DNA of 64,000 nucleotides from Bacillota bacterium. Its GTDB lineage: Bacteria > Bacillota > Limnochordia > Darwinibacteriales > DTU012. Shown here in pieces: positions 13,837 to 35,261 of this stretch. The position numbers were made by a program, and so were the translations under genes. Every line of letters begins with the position of its first letter. Within the stretch, counting starts at the first letter, position 1. The notes beneath the pieces are model-generated. The model worked only from the letters and a program-made list of their open reading frames with translations. It ran no database searches and was not told the DNA's origin. The DNA lies in assembly GCA_012520795.1 (NCBI GenBank), contig JAAYNP010000117.1:1-64000 (forward strand), written 5' to 3'.

Positions 13837-14685
13837 ATGCGGAAGCGGAAAGTTTTCCAAAAAATCCGAGAGTACCTCGGGGTGCTGATTGGTGTTGCCA
13901 TCACCGCCTTCGGGTTGACATGGTTTCTAATCCCGGGACGGATCGCCGCAGGGGGTGTGAGCGGGCTGGCCACTGTGGGCTATCACTTGTTCGGCCTTCC
14001 GGTTGGAATGACCATGCTGGTTTTGAACATCCCCCTGTTTATTGCCAGCATCACCATTATAGGGGCGGTATACGGGGCGAAGACCTTCATCGGCACCATA
14101 GTCCTTTCTGTCTTGATTGATCTGTTCCAGCCGTGGGCTGCCCCTTTGACGTCTGATCCCCTTCTGGCGGCTGTTTATGGTGGAGTGATAACCGGAATTG
14201 GCCTGGGGTTCACTTTCCGTTCCGGCGGCAGCACCGGTGGGACGGATATGGCAGCCCAGCTCGTAGCCAGGTTTCTTCCTACCACTGTCGGCAGGGCGCT
14301 CTTGTTTGTCGACGGCTTTGTGATCGTCTTGGCCGGCTTTGCGTTCGGCCCGGAACTGGCCTTGTATGCTTTACTGTCTGTCTTTGTGAGCACCAAGACC
14401 ATTGATTTGGTCCAGGAGGGCCAGAGCTATGCCAAAGCGGCCTACATCATTTCAGACCATTCGGACAAGGTCGGTGACATGATCCTGAACACCCTGGAAC
14501 GGGGAGCTACCGCTTTGGCCGGCCGCGGTGTTTATACAGATACTGACCGGGAAGTTCTGTTTGTAATTGTATCCCGTTCGGAAATCCGCACTCTGTGCCG
14601 GCTGGTAAGTGAGATCGATCCCCATGCTTTTATTGTGATCAGTGACGTGCATGAAGTCTTAGGCGAAGGCTTCAAGAAATTGTAA
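13837..14685 (+). CDS. YitT family (DUF2179) membrane protein
   Basis: 282 residues starting on the base after the tagA stop. There are five to six membrane helices in the first 190 residues (LGVLIGVAITAFGLTWFLIPG, a Gly-rich FRSGGSTGGTDMAAQL motif typical of YitT proteins). A C-terminal cytoplasmic DUF2179 domain (about 195-282: VLFVIVSRSEIRTLCRLVSEIDPHAFIVISDVHEVLGEGF) follows. Transport substrate is unknown for most members. It closes the 9.6-14.7 kb group; a separate promoter starts the next unit. Confidence 0.9.
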   Translation: MRKRKVFQKIREYLGVLIGVAITAFGLTWFLIPGRIAAGGVSGLATVGYHLFGLPVGMTMLVLNIPLFIASITIIGAVYGAKTFIGTIVLSVLIDLFQPWAAPLTSDPLLAAVYGGVITGIGLGFTFRSGGSTGGTDMAAQLVARFLPTTVGRALLFVDGFVIVLAGFAFGPELALYALLSVFVSTKTIDLVQEGQSYAKAAYIISDHSDKVGDMILNTLERGATALAGRGVYTDTDREVLFVIVSRSEIRTLCRLVSEIDPHAFIVISDVHEVLGEGFKKL

Positions 14686-14778: not shown

Positions 14779-14794
14779 CGAAAGGAGCTAAATC

Positions 14795-16414
14795 ATGAAA
14801 CGCAAAAAGGACATCCCAGTGCTGGCGGTTTACGCCTTGGTTGGGTTGGTTTTAGCAGGTTGTGTGATTACAGTACAGGATTTAACCAACCGGGTCCTTG
14901 AACAAAGCATGATCCGGGTATTTGTCAGCGGAAACGAGCAGGCGCAAGAGGTAGCTGCCCAAATCCGGGATCGTAAAGGGATTGTCAAGATGCAGGTGGT
15001 AGAGCAGGACCAAGCGGCGGCTGAGTTCGAAGCGGCATTGGGCTATGCTTGGCCTGGAGCGGATCCTTTGCCTGAATATATTGACGCCGTTGTGGAGCCG
15101 GCGGATGCAGCTGCGGTGGTGGATGCTCTGGAGGCAGATCCCGGCATTGAATACGTGGCATATCATCGGGAGCAGATTGAACAGCTTGCCGGGCTTGCCT
15201 TGGCATTGCGCCGCGCTTATGGGCTGCTGCTTTTACTGACGATTGTGGCCGCATTGATGTTGGCAGGCAAAGTGATTGCCATCTGCCGCACTGCCCCGGC
15301 CACATCCGTAGCAGTTACCGGTCTGTTGGTCTTGGTTGCGCTTGGGTTGTTCAATGGTCAGGCTGCCCATGCCCAAACCGCCACCGAGTTGAAACAGGTT
15401 TACCGGGAGGTGCAGGCGGAACTTGCCAAGCTGCAGAAAGAGTATGCAGAGCTGGAAAAGGAAGCTGCCGGGCTTGCAGTAGAGGTTGAGGCAGGAGAGA
15501 AAAGCAGTGCCAAGATCCAGTCTGAGCTGGAGCAGGCCCGCTTGGCTTTGAGCCAAACCTTGGACCAGATCAGCGGGGTGGAATTACAGCTTGACAGGCT
15601 CAAGCAGAACGGGCAAAGTGAAGCCCGGCATTACGGACAAAGTGTTTCCCAGCTGCAGAAGACGGCTGGCCTGGCAGCCAGAGGCCGAGTAGAGCACGAA
15701 GCCAAAGCCAGCCTGTTCCTAGACTATTTGCTCTATGCCAGCGGAAAGGCCTATACCCAGGCCGCTGAAAAGTGGGCCGGCAGCCAAAATTGGCAGCGGC
15801 AGCTAGAACAAGAATTGGCAGAACTGCAACAGGAACGGCAGCAGTTGGACAGTGCGCTGCGGCAGCTGAAGCAGGAGCTGAATCAAATCAACCAAGAACT
15901 GATGTTGAACAGTCAGCAGTTGACCGAGGTACGGCAAGGGCTCAAAGCTGTCCAGCGAATGATCTATACACAGGAAAGCAAAGCCTGGCACGGAAGAAGG
16001 AACCTTCAGCAGCAGCTGGGGTTCACTGATTTTGGATGGCCCCTTGCGGTCAGAGGTGTAGTATCCTCAGACTATGGCTCACGGCAGCATCCAATCTTTA
16101 ATGAAGAGCGTTTTCATACCGGTGTTGATCTGCCTTGTGAAATTGGAACTCCTATTAAGGCGGCAGCAGCCGGCACAGTCGTGCTCAGCGAAGACAACAA
16201 CGGCTATGGCCTGACAGTGGTAATCGACCATGGTGGAGGTGTAAGCACCCTTTACGCCCATGCCTCAAAACTGCTGGTGAATGCGGGAGACAGGGTTCAA
16301 GCAGGCGAAACAATTGCCCTTGCAGGCTCAACTGGCCTCAGCACAGGCCCGCACCTGCATTTCGAAGTGCGTCAGGATCAGCAGCATGTCGATCCCTGGA
16401 TTTGGTTGAGTTAA
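14795..16414 (+). CDS. FtsX-like domain fused to coiled-coil M23 peptidase (EnvC-like)
   Basis: 539 residues. Residues 8-27 are a membrane helix. Residues about 38-130 resemble the FtsX extracytoplasmic domain (SMIRVFVSGNEQAQEVAAQI, EAALGYAWPG, ADPGIEYVAYHREQIEQL), and 139-165 match FtsX helix 2. A second hydrophobic stretch (170-190) ends in an A-H-A|Q signal-peptidase-like site at 191-194. Residues about 197-410 are a long coiled coil as in EnvC, and 420-539 are an M23 metallopeptidase domain with zinc/catalytic residues in H441-T-G-V-D445 and L-H-F-E-V near 520. In FtsEX systems, ATP hydrolysis by FtsE moves FtsX, which activates EnvC or a CwlO-type hydrolase. Here FtsX helices 3-4 and ftsE are missing, and sensor domain and hydrolase are one polypeptide. 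Followed by ctpA. Confidence 0.8.
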   Translation: MKRKKDIPVLAVYALVGLVLAGCVITVQDLTNRVLEQSMIRVFVSGNEQAQEVAAQIRDRKGIVKMQVVEQDQAAAEFEAALGYAWPGADPLPEYIDAVVEPADAAAVVDALEADPGIEYVAYHREQIEQLAGLALALRRAYGLLLLLTIVAALMLAGKVIAICRTAPATSVAVTGLLVLVALGLFNGQAAHAQTATELKQVYREVQAELAKLQKEYAELEKEAAGLAVEVEAGEKSSAKIQSELEQARLALSQTLDQISGVELQLDRLKQNGQSEARHYGQSVSQLQKTAGLAARGRVEHEAKASLFLDYLLYASGKAYTQAAEKWAGSQNWQRQLEQELAELQQERQQLDSALRQLKQELNQINQELMLNSQQLTEVRQGLKAVQRMIYTQESKAWHGRRNLQQQLGFTDFGWPLAVRGVVSSDYGSRQHPIFNEERFHTGVDLPCEIGTPIKAAAAGTVVLSEDNNGYGLTVVIDHGGGVSTLYAHASKLLVNAGDRVQAGETIALAGSTGLSTGPHLHFEVRQDQQHVDPWIWLS

Positions 16415-16521: not shown

Positions 16522-17724
16522 ATGAAACGCAGGATTCTAATCCTGGGCACAGCGTTGGCACTATTGGTTGCAGCTTTTGCGTATGGCTCAGTACTCTCCA
16601 GTGTTGGGGGAGTTGAACAAAAAGCAGGCAGCACGGACCTGGATCATCTGCTGGAAGTTGTGTCTTTGGTCAGGTTCAGTTTTTACAAACCGGTTAATGT
16701 GGCGGATCTGCTCAGCGCCTATGCCCGAACTGGAAATATCACGGGGATGCTGGCGGAAGCCCTTGAAGATCCCTATACGCGGCTGATGGACCAGAATGCT
16801 TATGAAAGCCTGATCAGTGATACCAGTGGTGTTTTCGGTGGCATCGGGATTGTGATCGGCATCCGTGACGAGCTGCTGACCATTGTTTCTCCCATTAAGG
16901 GCACACCCGGTGAACGGGCTGGGCTGCGGGGCAGCGATCAGATTATCCGGATTGGCGAGCGCAGTACCGAGTTCATGACTACCGAAGAGGCTGCCAGCCT
17001 GATGCGGGGAGAACCGGGAACGGAAGTAACGATCACCATCCGCCGCGATGAAGAGGAATTTGACGTGACCATTGTCCGGGACATCATTAATGTCATGTCA
17101 ATTGAAGAAGTGAAAATGGTTCAGCCGGGAATCGGATACATCCGTCTGGCATCTTTTTCTGATCGTACACACGATGAATTGGTGGCAGCTTTGGACCAGC
17201 TGGAGGCTGGGGGTATGCAGGGCCTCATTCTTGACCTGCGGTTCAATCCCGGCGGCCCCTTGGGCGCAGCGATCGAGGTCGCCGATGAATTCATAGCCAG
17301 CGGGCCGATTGTTCATCTTGAAGATCGCAATGGTGACCGGGCAAGCTGGGAGGCGGTGGAAGCCGGGACAAGAAAGCCCGTTCCTATGGTGATTTTGGTT
17401 AACGGTTCAAGTGCCAGTGCCTCGGAAATTGTCGCCGGAGCACTGCGGGATCACGGCTTGGCAGTCCTTGTGGGAACAACAACATTCGGTAAAGGCCTAG
17501 TCCAATCAGTGATTCCGCTGCGTGACGGAGGGGCGCTCAGCCTGACGGCACAAGTTTATTTGACTGCCTGGGGCCATGATATCAACGAATCAGGGATTGA
17601 GCCCGATTATGAGCTGGAAATCAGCGACGAGGAGATGGAAGCCATCTTCCTTGGCGAAGCGGAAGTGGATCGGCAGTTGGACAAAGCTGTTGAAATCATC
17701 GCCGCTCAGATTGGTGGAGAATAA
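16522..17724 (+). CDS. ctpA: S41 family C-terminal processing peptidase CtpA
   Basis: 400 residues. It has an N-terminal signal/anchor helix (ILILGTALALLVAAFAYG), a PDZ domain (about residues 105-180, GVFGGIGIVIGIRDELLTIV) and the S41 protease core. The catalytic serine is in VNGSSASASEIVAGAL and the lysine in TTFGKGLVQ. Ctp proteases act outside the cytoplasmic membrane on envelope proteins, in several bacteria degrading or activating peptidoglycan hydrolases. Location directly after an EnvC-like M23 gene is conserved in Bacillota and proteobacteria. A terminator follows 4 bases after the stop. Confidence 0.95.
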   Translation: MKRRILILGTALALLVAAFAYGSVLSSVGGVEQKAGSTDLDHLLEVVSLVRFSFYKPVNVADLLSAYARTGNITGMLAEALEDPYTRLMDQNAYESLISDTSGVFGGIGIVIGIRDELLTIVSPIKGTPGERAGLRGSDQIIRIGERSTEFMTTEEAASLMRGEPGTEVTITIRRDEEEFDVTIVRDIINVMSIEEVKMVQPGIGYIRLASFSDRTHDELVAALDQLEAGGMQGLILDLRFNPGGPLGAAIEVADEFIASGPIVHLEDRNGDRASWEAVEAGTRKPVPMVILVNGSSASASEIVAGALRDHGLAVLVGTTTFGKGLVQSVIPLRDGGALSLTAQVYLTAWGHDINESGIEPDYELEISDEEMEAIFLGEAEVDRQLDKAVEIIAAQIGGE

Positions 17725-27901: not shown

Positions 27902-28651
27902 TTAAAACTTGTAGCTGACTCCAATCTGGAGCCCGCCTGAGGTAAAGGTGTTTCTGTTGATCGTGAAGCCATCCGAAACCTCAATCTCATGTACGGTCGT
28001 CCTGGTTCCTCCATACTCTGCCCGGATCACCCAGCGATCATTGAGGTCGTATTCGGCAGTCACAAGATAACCGTATTTTGAGCCGCCGGTGTCTTTGATG
28101 TAGCCCTTGACGCGATAACTCCAATTATACCACGGCGCAGCCTGGATCAGTGCCTTCACTGTCACTTTGTCCAAGACGTAGAAATTCACTTGTGATGCTG
28201 CTATGAATCCGCTGCCTTCCAGCCACACATAGTTGATCAGCTCGCCGTTTTGCTCGACCAGGTTTTTGAAGAAATTGTGGACAAAATGATAACCGATACC
28301 TCCATAAATGCTCATCGGGTCATCCTGGAAAAACTGGTAGAGCAGTACGGCCTGAGTATAATCGGCTGATAGAGAAGCATTCTCTGCCAAGGTGGGATTG
28401 CTGGTTTTGGGGGCGTTCCCCAATGCGTGATCAATCAACAGGACCAGATCAGACGTTGGCTCTACCTTACCTTTGATCGCCAATTCCCATGTGCTGATGG
28501 TTTGCGGCTCACCATTGTCGAAGAGATGATCGAAGTGTATGGTATTGAGATGGAAATCAGCACCAAAGGTGGTATTGTAGTTGTTCTGGGCTGATCCCGC
28601 GTTTGCCATCAAAAACAGGCCTGCGATTAGACAGATAACGATTTTCTTCAT
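27902..28651 (-). CDS. Secreted beta-barrel-like protein, putative outer-membrane protein
   Basis: 249 residues, family not recognised. The N-terminus is a classical signal peptide (MKKIVICLIAGLFLMANAGSAQ, cleavage after GSA). The mature part alternates short amphipathic strands with turns (YGGIGYHFVHNFF, YLVTAEYDLNDRWVIRAEYG) and ends GGLQIGVSYKF. A terminal phenylalanine with alternating hydrophobics is the C-terminal beta-signal of outer-membrane barrels read by BamA. That is unusual for monoderm Bacillota. It starts 20 bases after the subtilase gene and has its own AAGGAGG site, so it is probably cotranscribed. Confidence 0.6.
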   Translation of the reverse strand: MKKIVICLIAGLFLMANAGSAQNNYNTTFGADFHLNTIHFDHLFDNGEPQTISTWELAIKGKVEPTSDLVLLIDHALGNAPKTSNPTLAENASLSADYTQAVLLYQFFQDDPMSIYGGIGYHFVHNFFKNLVEQNGELINYVWLEGSGFIAASQVNFYVLDKVTVKALIQAAPWYNWSYRVKGYIKDTGGSKYGYLVTAEYDLNDRWVIRAEYGGTRTTVHEIEVSDGFTINRNTFTSGGLQIGVSYKF

Positions 28652-28671: not shown

Positions 28672-30528
28672 TTACTGAAAGATATCTAAACGAATGTCCA
28701 AGTCAACAATATGCTGCCCGAGTTCGACCAGGACCTCTGACTGGTAATACCACTCTCCAATATTGACAGCTTGATCTTGATTGCTGTCAATATGCGCCGC
28801 AACCTGGTACAAACCGGGGGGCAGAAGCCGTTGGAAATGCCGGTCTTGATCAAATTCCGCTTGATGGACGGCTCCTGTGGTGTGATCGATAAAACAGAGA
28901 ACTGCACTGCTGAGGGGTGTTTCGGTGATGGCAGCATATGCATTTACTATGCGCTGGTACGGTTGAGCCGGATCAAGCACGATCCCCGTATTCCATAATA
29001 GATCTTCTACTTCTGATTTGGTTATATTGGGGTAGGTGCTTTTCACAAGCGCCGCAATGCCCGCTATGTGCGGCGCGGCCATTGACGTTCCCCGGGCAAA
29101 GCTGTAACCCCCGGCACTGGGGCCGACCAGATCGGTACTGTAGATTGCCGGTTCGGATTCGGTATGGGAACCTCCCGGGGCAAACAGGGCGACCCCGTCC
29201 TTGGCCGAGAATTCTGCAATCTGGTGTTCGTATGTGGTGGCACCGGCAGCAATCACCTCAGGATACCCCGCCGGGTATACGAGCTGATTGTCATTGCCGG
29301 CTGATGCTACCATGATGATCCCGGCAACGTCAGCTTCCCGGATCTTTTCGTAAAGCGGATGCTGATCCGGGTTTCTGAGACTGACACCCAGGCTCATGTT
29401 GATGATGTCGACATCCAGATCGATCGCCTTTTGAATTCCCGCGATAACATTGCTGAGGGCCCCTCTGTTGTTTTCATCAAGGACGACAATGGGAATAATC
29501 TCTACATTGATGCCCCAGGCAACTCCCGCAACTCCCTCAGCATTGTCTGTGGTGGCACCGATAATCCCGATTACATGGGTTCCGTGGCTGTAGGGGGCTT
29601 GGGTGATCCTGCCGGGGTAGTCGCTGACATCCCGGCTTTGTCTGACCACGTTGTAAGCTTCTTCCAAGTTCAGGTTCTGCTGCAGATCTGGATGGCCGGT
29701 ATCCACCAGGGTATCCAATACCGCGATCCGAACCTTGGCGCCGCTTCCTACCTGCGGCCAGGCAAAGGGCAGGTAGACAGCTGCCAGGTTCCACTGGTGT
29801 GCATATCCCGGATCGTTCGGCGAGATGATCAACTGCTCTTCTGCCGCCGCGGCAGCCAGGGGGTAAACGGGATAGTTGATCCCGGCAGTTTTGACCAGGG
29901 GATGAGCTGCTGCTGAACTGGCAAACTCCTCAATGGTCAGTTTTTCTGGTTTCCGATAGACGATGATTCCCGCTTCCGGATAGAGTGTGAAGCCGTCTGC
30001 CTCAATTGCCCTGCCAATTTCACGGGCAACAGCCTCACTATATGTATATGGCTCCACAATGACTTCGGCTAACTCCTCCTGGGGTTCAAACCAGGCCGGT
30101 TCAAAAGCTGCATCACAGCAAGCCTCCAGACTGACGGGGGGAACTTCCGGAAGCGCATAATCTATCCTACCCGCCACCAGGCTGTATCCTTCATTCTCGG
30201 GCGAGAGTTCGATCAGCAGTGAAAGCTCTTTGTCTACGCCCAGCTTGATTGTGCCGTGATACGGTTGGAAGTATGCATACTCCACCGCAAGCTTCACGCT
30301 TTTCAGTGCCGTCCGCAGCGTAATAGAAAAGCGCCCGTCCATGCCGGAACGAATCGCAAAGTTCTTAGGCCCTGCAGTGATGGCAATCTGTGCGTCGGCA
30401 ATGGGGACCTGGGCATCTTTAACGTAGATAACGCCGTCAATCTTATACTCTCTTGTCTGAGAACTACCGATGCACCCCATTAGCAGGGCCAAAACCGCCA
30501 GCAGTATCTTGAACCGCATCTTGTGCAT
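28672..30528 (-). CDS. Subtilisin-like (S8) serine peptidase, predicted lipoprotein
   Basis: About 618 residues from the ATG at 30528 (behind GGAGG); a further in-frame start at 30555 has no ribosome site. The signal peptide ends in an LMGC lipobox (C at about residue 19), so it is likely lipid-anchored outside the plasma membrane. An N-terminal carboxypeptidase-regulatory-like beta domain is followed by a propeptide-like region. The S8 catalytic domain has Asp in AVLDTLVDTGHPDL, His in YSHGTHVIGIIGA and Ser in RGTSMAAPHIAGIAALV. A small beta domain forms the C-terminus. The substrate is unknown. It is the first gene of a two-gene minus-strand unit with the barrel-like protein. Confidence 0.85.
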   Translation of the reverse strand: MHKMRFKILLAVLALLMGCIGSSQTREYKIDGVIYVKDAQVPIADAQIAITAGPKNFAIRSGMDGRFSITLRTALKSVKLAVEYAYFQPYHGTIKLGVDKELSLLIELSPENEGYSLVAGRIDYALPEVPPVSLEACCDAAFEPAWFEPQEELAEVIVEPYTYSEAVAREIGRAIEADGFTLYPEAGIIVYRKPEKLTIEEFASSAAAHPLVKTAGINYPVYPLAAAAAEEQLIISPNDPGYAHQWNLAAVYLPFAWPQVGSGAKVRIAVLDTLVDTGHPDLQQNLNLEEAYNVVRQSRDVSDYPGRITQAPYSHGTHVIGIIGATTDNAEGVAGVAWGINVEIIPIVVLDENNRGALSNVIAGIQKAIDLDVDIINMSLGVSLRNPDQHPLYEKIREADVAGIIMVASAGNDNQLVYPAGYPEVIAAGATTYEHQIAEFSAKDGVALFAPGGSHTESEPAIYSTDLVGPSAGGYSFARGTSMAAPHIAGIAALVKSTYPNITKSEVEDLLWNTGIVLDPAQPYQRIVNAYAAITETPLSSAVLCFIDHTTGAVHQAEFDQDRHFQRLLPPGLYQVAAHIDSNQDQAVNIGEWYYQSEVLVELGQHIVDLDIRLDIFQ

Positions 30529-30631
30529 GGTTTTACCTCCGCTGCATGCTATCAAATATATTCGCTGTTAGGGCATTAATCCCTGTTGGCATCGAAAATA
30601 AAGCTTCGGTTAAAAATATTTAAGACAGACC

Positions 30632-33890: not shown

Positions 33891-35261
33891 ATGAAGAAGT
33901 CAATAATGGTTATAGCATTAGTGCTTGTATTGGCAGTTTCCGGTTCAGTGTTTGCGGCCGGAATCAAATTTGACGGTTCGTTGAAATCAAATCTCGAGTG
34001 GTACAGAGATTTGGAGGGTAACATTGAAACCCGCCCATCTTCAGAACTGCGCCTGAACTTCGGTTTGGACACAGCCAACGAAAAGACCAGGGCTGTTGTG
34101 GAGTTTGGCATCGGCGACAAGAACAGCAATGGCCTGGATCTGGAACTGGATCCCAGCAACCTGTCCTTGAAAAAAGCTTATATCGAAACCGACGGCCCAT
34201 TCTGGTACGGCGGGCCTGAAGCAACAACCCGCTTCGGCAGCCTGGATATCGACTACGGCCCATTCAGTGTAGTCAAGGGTCAGTACGGTATCAGTGTGAG
34301 CAACATGAACGTTGGGCCCGTAACCCTTAAGGGATTCTACGGTATCCCCAGCGAAGAGCAGAGGTCAATTAAAGGCCTCCGGGCTGACATGTTCATGGAC
34401 AACATTGCTGCCGGTGCAGTAGTAGTCCACGACTGGGATGCAGTGCATCTAGCAGTAGATGGTGCAATCCGCCCGATGCATGATCTGATTCTTGGCGCTT
34501 CCGTTGCCACTGAATTCGATCTGACTGAAGAAGCTGAAGCCGCGGATGAAGGTGAAGGTGAAGGTGAAGCTGAAGAAGCAGGAGCACTGCGGTATATACT
34601 GGCAGTAGGAGCTCAGTACCAGGTAATGGATAACTTGAGTGTCCGCGGCGGATACAAAGTCATTTCTGAAGATTGGCAGCCTGAATACCTGGCAGACAAA
34701 GCCCCGAGAGCTGCTGACGACCGCGGCCAAAACTGGATTCATGAGGGCGAACGCCGGAACAGCGGTTTCTATGTCAATATCGCTACCAACCAGGCTGGCA
34801 TCCAGCTGACTGCCGACTACGATCAAATCTTTGACGAGGCAGTCCTTACCGCAGCAACCGATGTAGAAGGTTACAAAGTCAACGTTGAAACAGTAATGGC
34901 AGTTGGCGGCGAAGAAGGCATCAAGACCGAAAGCGCAGATCTGGGAATCGAAAAAGCATTCGCAGTAATTGACGGCTTGGATGTCACAGCCAACTACAAC
35001 GGCAAATGGACACCGGCTTCAGGGCTGGTCCACACTGTCGGCGCCAAGACCAAACTGGGCTTGCTCCCTGCAATTGACGGCCTTGAAGTAAACAGCGAAG
35101 TGACAGTTTCCGATACTGAAACTATTGGTTACGCAGTTGGAGCATCCTTCAACGCACCAAACGGCATCGGCGTGAGCATCAAGCATGTCGGCGGCGCGTT
35201 TGCCGACGAATCGATCCAAACCGGTACTACTGCCAAGGCAGGAATCTCAGTCAAATTCTAG
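33891..35261 (+). CDS. Porin-like secreted beta-barrel protein, putative outer-membrane porin
   Basis: 456 residues. Signal peptide (SIMVIALVLVLAVSGSVFA, cleaved after VFA). The mature protein is rich in alternating strands with aromatic belts and turns (TRAVVEFGIGDKN, TTRFGSLDIDYGPFSVVKGQ, VGPVTLKGFYGIPSEE, LSVRGGYKVIS) and ends KAGISVKF, a terminal-phenylalanine beta-signal. An acidic loop near residues 205-225 is almost only Glu/Ala/Gly. Codon use is smooth and GC-rich, suggesting high expression. It resembles porin-like proteins of diderm Bacillota but no conserved SLH domain is present, unlike OmpM. It has a long leader and a strong terminator. Confidence 0.65.
   Translation: MKKSIMVIALVLVLAVSGSVFAAGIKFDGSLKSNLEWYRDLEGNIETRPSSELRLNFGLDTANEKTRAVVEFGIGDKNSNGLDLELDPSNLSLKKAYIETDGPFWYGGPEATTRFGSLDIDYGPFSVVKGQYGISVSNMNVGPVTLKGFYGIPSEEQRSIKGLRADMFMDNIAAGAVVVHDWDAVHLAVDGAIRPMHDLILGASVATEFDLTEEAEAADEGEGEGEAEEAGALRYILAVGAQYQVMDNLSVRGGYKVISEDWQPEYLADKAPRAADDRGQNWIHEGERRNSGFYVNIATNQAGIQLTADYDQIFDEAVLTAATDVEGYKVNVETVMAVGGEEGIKTESADLGIEKAFAVIDGLDVTANYNGKWTPASGLVHTVGAKTKLGLLPAIDGLEVNSEVTVSDTETIGYAVGASFNAPNGIGVSIKHVGGAFADESIQTGTTAKAGISVKF

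Follow-up and report, generated by a model that had tools for sequence, protein, structure and literature searches.

The window analysed here, a 64,000-nucleotide stretch of DNA from a bacterium of the class Limnochordia (Bacillota), contains a gene that encodes the front half of FtsX, a signal-peptide-like segment, a coiled coil and an M23 peptidase in one protein. FtsEX is the textbook case of an ATP-driven force that acts through the membrane and switches on a wall hydrolase. The fused protein is probably a motorless derivative of this FtsEX-hydrolase system, in which the truncated FtsX (half-FtsX) would serve as an ATPase-free receptor and the fused precursor would be cut by signal peptidase. 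The fused gene, its parts and its two neighbours are the following:

13837-14685 (+), YitT-family membrane protein, neighbour of the fused gene
14780-14788 (+), GAAAGGAGC, Shine-Dalgarno-like motif preceding the fused gene (pairing energy -6.3 kcal/mol)
14795-16414 (+), fused gene (539 aa): half-FtsX, signal-peptide-like segment, coiled coil and M23 peptidase
14810-14890 (+), TM1, residues about 6-32 (hydropathy; predicted helix 2-36)
14906-15163 (+), FtsX extracellular domain with porter fold, residues about 38-123 (PF18075, AF2 model, Foldseek to FtsX)
15005-15076 (+), second helix and X-lobe segment DQAAAEFEAALGYAWPGADPLP, residues about 71-94, putative hydrolase-binding region (conservation; X-lobe role according to PMC7668044)
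15167-15292 (+), TM2, one long helix, residues 125-166
15302-15373 (+), former signal peptide of the M23 gene, residues 170-193, AHA↓Q194 ((-3,-1) rule; predicted signal peptidase I site after residue 193)
15380-16015 (+), EnvC-type coiled-coil hairpin, residues 196-407 (AF2 model, Foldseek to EnvC 8tzl and 6tpi)
15701-15745 (+), coiled-coil tip motif AKASLFLDYLLYASG, residues 303-317, expected X-lobe docking site (conservation peak, canonical-operon motif, EnvC interface)
16109-16396 (+), M23 peptidase domain, residues 439-534, with HTGVD, YAH and GPHLHFE intact
16522-17724 (+), S41 C-terminal processing peptidase (CtpA-like) with a PDZ domain, neighbour of the fused gene

The ORF at 14795-16414 (+) is a single frame without internal stops, and the motif GAAAGGAGC that precedes it is also present in two further genomes of the genus (G003 and G004). 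A profile search with FtsX_ECD (PF18075) recovered the fused protein above the cut-off (E 7.7e-7, 30.9 bits), and this is the sole match above the cut-off in the source genome, which is 99% complete. The NCBIfam model of FtsX (TIGR00439, 292 positions) is matched only over positions 34-189, which correspond to residues 18-161 (E 2.9e-10); the score reaches 39.8 of the 255 bits needed, and the protein does not qualify as a whole FtsX with four membrane helices. Moreover, a profile built from the half-FtsX sequences of the family finds the solved FtsX chains 8ymc, 8hd0, 8i6o and 6tpi (E 2e-8 to 3e-4), and the fold predicted for residues 1-168 (AF2, pLDDT 84) is closest, among PDB entries, to FtsX, with that of Pseudomonas aeruginosa first (E 2.6e-7) and those of Escherichia coli, Streptococcus pneumoniae and Mycobacterium tuberculosis among the other top solved structures. 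Profile search and structure prediction hence bear out the preliminary description of this DNA, which had seen FtsX in residues 1-165 up to the second helix. That description was also right in every point of the remaining anatomy, i.e., a signal segment with an AHA↓Q site, an EnvC coiled coil and an intact M23 domain. Peptidase_M23 covers residues 439-534 (E 6.5e-36), and each of the eight complete family members has intact HTGVD, YAH and GPHLHFE motifs for metal binding and catalysis. The PDB matches of the whole-protein AF2 model, which is of lower confidence, are led by EnvC (8tzl, 6tpi; Foldseek); this model is weak at the M23 domain and too weak to reveal docking. Despite the coiled-coil hairpin, the protein stays below the cut-off of the NCBIfam EnvC equivalog (79.3 of 270 bits).

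The distribution of the gene was followed in five genomes of the host genus (G000-G004) and, together with G005-G008, in nine genomes of the family. The survey of relatives proposed in the preliminary description located the fusion, end to end, in two other species (64% and 57% identity to the window protein), so that it is complete in three of the five genus genomes (G000, G003, G004). The other two (G001, G002) carry two adjacent genes in its place, and in three further genera (G005-G007) half-FtsX is likewise a gene of its own, followed by the M23 gene. The separate half-FtsX proteins have about 173-183 aa (stop-to-stop frames of 180-186 aa) and comprise only TM1, the extracellular domain and TM2, and they overlap the M23 gene by exactly 13 nt in all five unfused genomes. 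Separate or fused, half-FtsX is found in eight of the nine family genomes, which represent four genera, and an M23 gene adjoins it in all eight. The fused species split from the rest of the tree with a support of 100, and since they form one clade, one fusion event suffices. The motor parts and the gene boundary are indeed both gone, as had been noticed before, but they were not lost together: because unfused relatives already carry the half-FtsX gene, the fusion is not linked to the loss of FtsE and helices 3-4. Judged from these gene arrangements, motor loss came before the fusion and applies to the family as a whole rather than to the fused clade alone. The fusion is a later and smaller step, in which the 13-nt overlap was resolved into a single frame.

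The separate half-FtsX proteins share a conserved C-terminal Cys (C[AED][AS], in five loci). A functional role for this residue was rejected, since the overlapping M23 gene starts with ATGCG, which dictates the residue, so that it can be conserved without any function in the protein.

At the junction, the three fused species present AHA↓Q, VQA↓Q and AAA↓Q, i.e., (A/V)xA↓Q. All three have the hydrophobic core and the small residues at -3 and -1 typical of signal peptidase I substrates, and the core within residues 170-193 is short in each of them. The junction is also the fastest-changing part of the protein (23-35% identity; pN/pS 0.6-0.9 for residues 159-193). This pattern, a site that is kept while the rest changes freely, is more readily explained by a cleavable signal peptide than by a fixed third helix, and makes A193↓Q194 a probable cleavage site of signal peptidase I. 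The fusion might instead stay uncut. The former signal peptide would then remain in the membrane as a permanent TM3, giving a protein with three membrane helices whose hydrolase is covalently tethered to its own FtsX sensor. TM3 of FtsX likewise runs in-to-out, the frame has been preserved since the origin of the fused clade, and a covalent tether would account for the persistence of the fusion. Against a permanent helix speak the short core and the (A/V)xA↓Q site of all three species in a segment whose other positions are free, and we regard the uncut form as unlikely, though a serious alternative to cleavage.

The fused protein has no FtsX homology beyond TM2, neither a coupling helix nor TM3-4, in line with the earlier claim that helices 3-4 are missing. 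Aligned with full-length FtsX, half-FtsX lacks the N-terminal segment before TM1, the loop RRREI.IMK..GAT and TM3-4. The loop between TM2 and TM3 is the coupling helix, which binds FtsE (PMC7468199; PMC11139282), and it is absent from all eight half-FtsX proteins. What half-FtsX retains is TM1/TM2, which form the main dimer interface of FtsX (PMC11627006), the porter fold, and the X-lobe, the binding site of EnvC (PMC7668044). No other part of half-FtsX is as conserved as the X-lobe region (mean pairwise identity 0.56 vs. 0.33 overall); this region aligns with the region 145-171 of the E. coli protein, is about six residues shorter than in relatives, and contains an invariant F78 that aligns with E. 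coli F152. In the coiled coil, conservation peaks at the tip, residues 303-317 (0.5-0.56 vs. 0.26), whose motif AKASLFLDYLLYASG equals the motif found at the same place in canonical M23 proteins encoded next to FtsX. By its position, the tip matches the EnvC surface that faces the X-lobe and is the expected docking site. With these two peaks, the strongest constraint lies on both sides of the binding surface, while the motor side is gone.

This conservation bears on the idea that half-FtsX is a decaying relic on its way to loss and that only the M23 enzyme matters. Such a course would agree with the rest of the class, where FtsX and this M23 gene have been lost from the locus, and with the remaining family genome (G008), whose M23 protein has a shortened coil and where half-FtsX was not detected. 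However, half-FtsX persists in four genera (eight genomes), its X-lobe region is strongly conserved, and in the fused clade the pN/pS values of 0.31-0.47 for half-FtsX and 0.13-0.19 for M23, rough as they are with synonymous differences near saturation, indicate purifying selection; a mere relic is therefore improbable. The M23 gene of G008 lies at the same locus beside ctpA (L131:6-773), at a contig edge, with a coil cut to about 100 aa. The absence of half-FtsX from this assembly is uninformative, since the YitT gene is missing as well and the region may be unassembled. We also noticed that the shortened coil has no FtsX-binding tip, and a joint loss of receptor and docking site is possible in G008, where the contig ends.

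The absence of FtsE, supposed from the start, was found throughout the genus: none of its five genomes has a match above the TIGR02673 cut-off (best 223 vs. 264.85 bits). Those top FtsE-like matches that were examined sit in MacB/TolC-type or methionine-transporter-type operons. The preliminary description had reasoned that separate genes in close relatives together with a complete ftsEX pair elsewhere would speak for an artefactual fusion; the separate genes do exist, but neither a full FtsX nor a complete ftsEX was found in the source genome (99% complete). One could still imagine that half-FtsX borrows another ABC ATPase or a full permease, e.g., of MacB type, and that the system is still ATP-driven, considering the many FtsE-like ATPases of these genomes. 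Yet the top ones examined adjoin transporter genes of their own, and half-FtsX is missing the coupling helix, the FtsX site for FtsE (PMC7468199), which leaves no known docking site for an ATPase; we consider borrowing very improbable.

The absence of a complete FtsX extends beyond the genus. Among 73 genomes of the class, no full-length FtsX was seen, and FtsX_ECD exceeds the cut-off in the host family only; none of the genomes outside the family (G009-G072) has either. The other FtsX-model matches of the class, among those listed, cover only the permease part, starting at about position 91-172, and nearly all lie in frames of at least 380 aa, as expected for MacB-type permeases. Weak FtsX_ECD matches in two genomes (G027 and G031) were discarded as false, being located in chemotaxis-type loci. 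From these data, an entire class of Bacillota seems to have lost full FtsEX, which agrees with a published remark on Limnochorda: the class is diderm, and several division genes are reported missing from its type species (PMC11456536). In a sample of the phylum, FtsX_ECD occurs in 355 of 398 genomes, outside the family in frames of roughly 270-360 aa (among the matches listed), and the loci inspected have the order ftsE, ftsX and a coiled-coil M23 gene. When the half-FtsX profile was run against the phylum, family members ranked first and, among the matches listed, no frame shorter than 263 aa appeared outside the family. The order ftsE-ftsX-M23 is presumably ancestral to half-FtsX-M23. Since the latter preserves the ancestral order of ftsX and M23, the simpler reading is that the family kept both genes and the rest of the class lost them; horizontal acquisition of half-FtsX-M23 is possible. 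A phage origin was rejected, since phage records match only the coil/M23 end and, with the patterns used, no half-FtsX was found in viral contigs.

Where the two genes are separate, Shine-Dalgarno pairing at the M23 start is strong (-9.2 to -9.9 kcal/mol). This signal is gone in all three fused species, whose internal start candidates pair at -5.5 kcal/mol or weaker (in-gene median -3.2) and include no start common to the three. With no shared internal start and weak candidate pairing, the hydrolase most likely depends on the fused frame. An artefact of assembly, sequencing or annotation, or translation of M23 from an internal start, is suggested by the two genes of close relatives and by a GTG at codon 160 in G000 with a weak possible ribosome site (-5.5 kcal/mol), but we reject the former, since the frame is kept in three separate assemblies of three species at 57-64% identity, and the latter, for want of a shared start or a strong ribosome site, and give hardly any credit to either.

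We propose that the ancestor of the family lost ftsE and the ATPase-coupling parts of ftsX. Because the TM1/TM2 dimer interface and the X-lobe-bearing extracellular domain are retained, half-FtsX probably forms a membrane-bound dimer that grips the coiled-coil tip of the adjacent, active M23 endopeptidase, presumably with a role in division. It would keep the enzyme at the inner membrane, and neither binding nor release would need ATP. Within the genus, one clade would then have turned the 13-nt overlap into a single reading frame giving one precursor, which would pass out through TM1 and in through TM2, with the old signal peptide leading the coil and M23 out. A cut by signal peptidase I at A193↓Q194 would leave half-FtsX and hydrolase in a 1:1 ratio at the same spot. 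This ratio is in tension with the EnvC complex, where the hydrolase sits between two FtsX domains, with two FtsX per hydrolase (PMC7668044).

According to the preliminary description, a division hydrolase may be held and released here in a new, ATP-independent manner. With the FtsE-contacting parts of FtsX missing and no detectable FtsE in the genus, the proposal fits in outline, although the loss precedes the fusion and is family-wide. The E. coli FtsX-EnvC complex is largely autoinhibited or inactive without ATP-bound FtsE (PMC11139282), and by analogy the motorless half-FtsX may serve more to store or position the enzyme than to activate it. More tentatively, the half-FtsX dimer could be a passive ATP-free switch or timer, with the extracellular half of FtsX as a separable regulator; its gates might be half-FtsX assembly, the state of the membrane or, for the fused precursor, signal peptidase cleavage. 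As the M23 domain has its own catalytic motifs, an amidase may not be needed.

The closest known system is FtsEX-EnvC of E. coli, P. aeruginosa and Vibrio cholerae, which likewise combines the TM1, extracellular domain and TM2 of an FtsX bearing an X-lobe with a partner made of a coiled-coil hairpin and a LytM/M23 fold, and which provides the best structural matches of the fused protein. Unlike it, the fused system is encoded by one gene and has no FtsE, coupling helix or TM3-4. Furthermore, E. coli EnvC is degenerate and acts through amidases (PMC11627006), whereas the M23 domain of the fused protein keeps its catalytic motifs. The ftsE-ftsX-M23 operons of other Bacillota (six loci) also place a coiled-coil M23 gene, with the same tip motif, after ftsX, but their FtsX is full-length (about 300 aa) and ftsE lies upstream. 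In FtsEX-PcsB of S. pneumoniae and FtsEX-RipC of M. tuberculosis, the extracellular domain of FtsX controls a catalytic coiled-coil hydrolase (PMC11627006). The FtsX domains of these systems are among the best fold matches of half-FtsX; they differ in using a hydrolase from outside the M23 family and in including the FtsE ATPase. The arrangement is a new variant of the FtsEX-hydrolase system, of which we found no earlier description: a literature search on truncated FtsX, fusion and FtsE independence returned no such arrangement among the hits listed, many subscription papers being outside its reach.

A lineage that lacks the ATP-facing parts and keeps those that grip the enzyme is a natural separation-of-function experiment, and makes it testable whether the extracellular domain of FtsX alone holds, localises or activates a hydrolase. 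The natural fusion is also an argument for a partnership between FtsX and the neighbouring M23 hydrolase.

As for the context of the gene, outside the family the YitT gene is followed by the ctpA-like gene within about 80-350 bp (11 loci with both genes together), and in the host genus half-FtsX and M23 fill about 1.84 kb between the two. Elsewhere in the window, the gene at 33891-35261 (+) encodes a 456-aa protein with a signal-peptide-like start and a beta-rich N-terminal part that looks porin-like by eye; it has no Pfam match at E 1e-4. An outer-membrane beta-barrel protein (PF13505) is encoded at 27902-28651 (-), adjoining a subtilase gene on the same strand (28672-30555), and suggests a diderm cell in the Bacillota.
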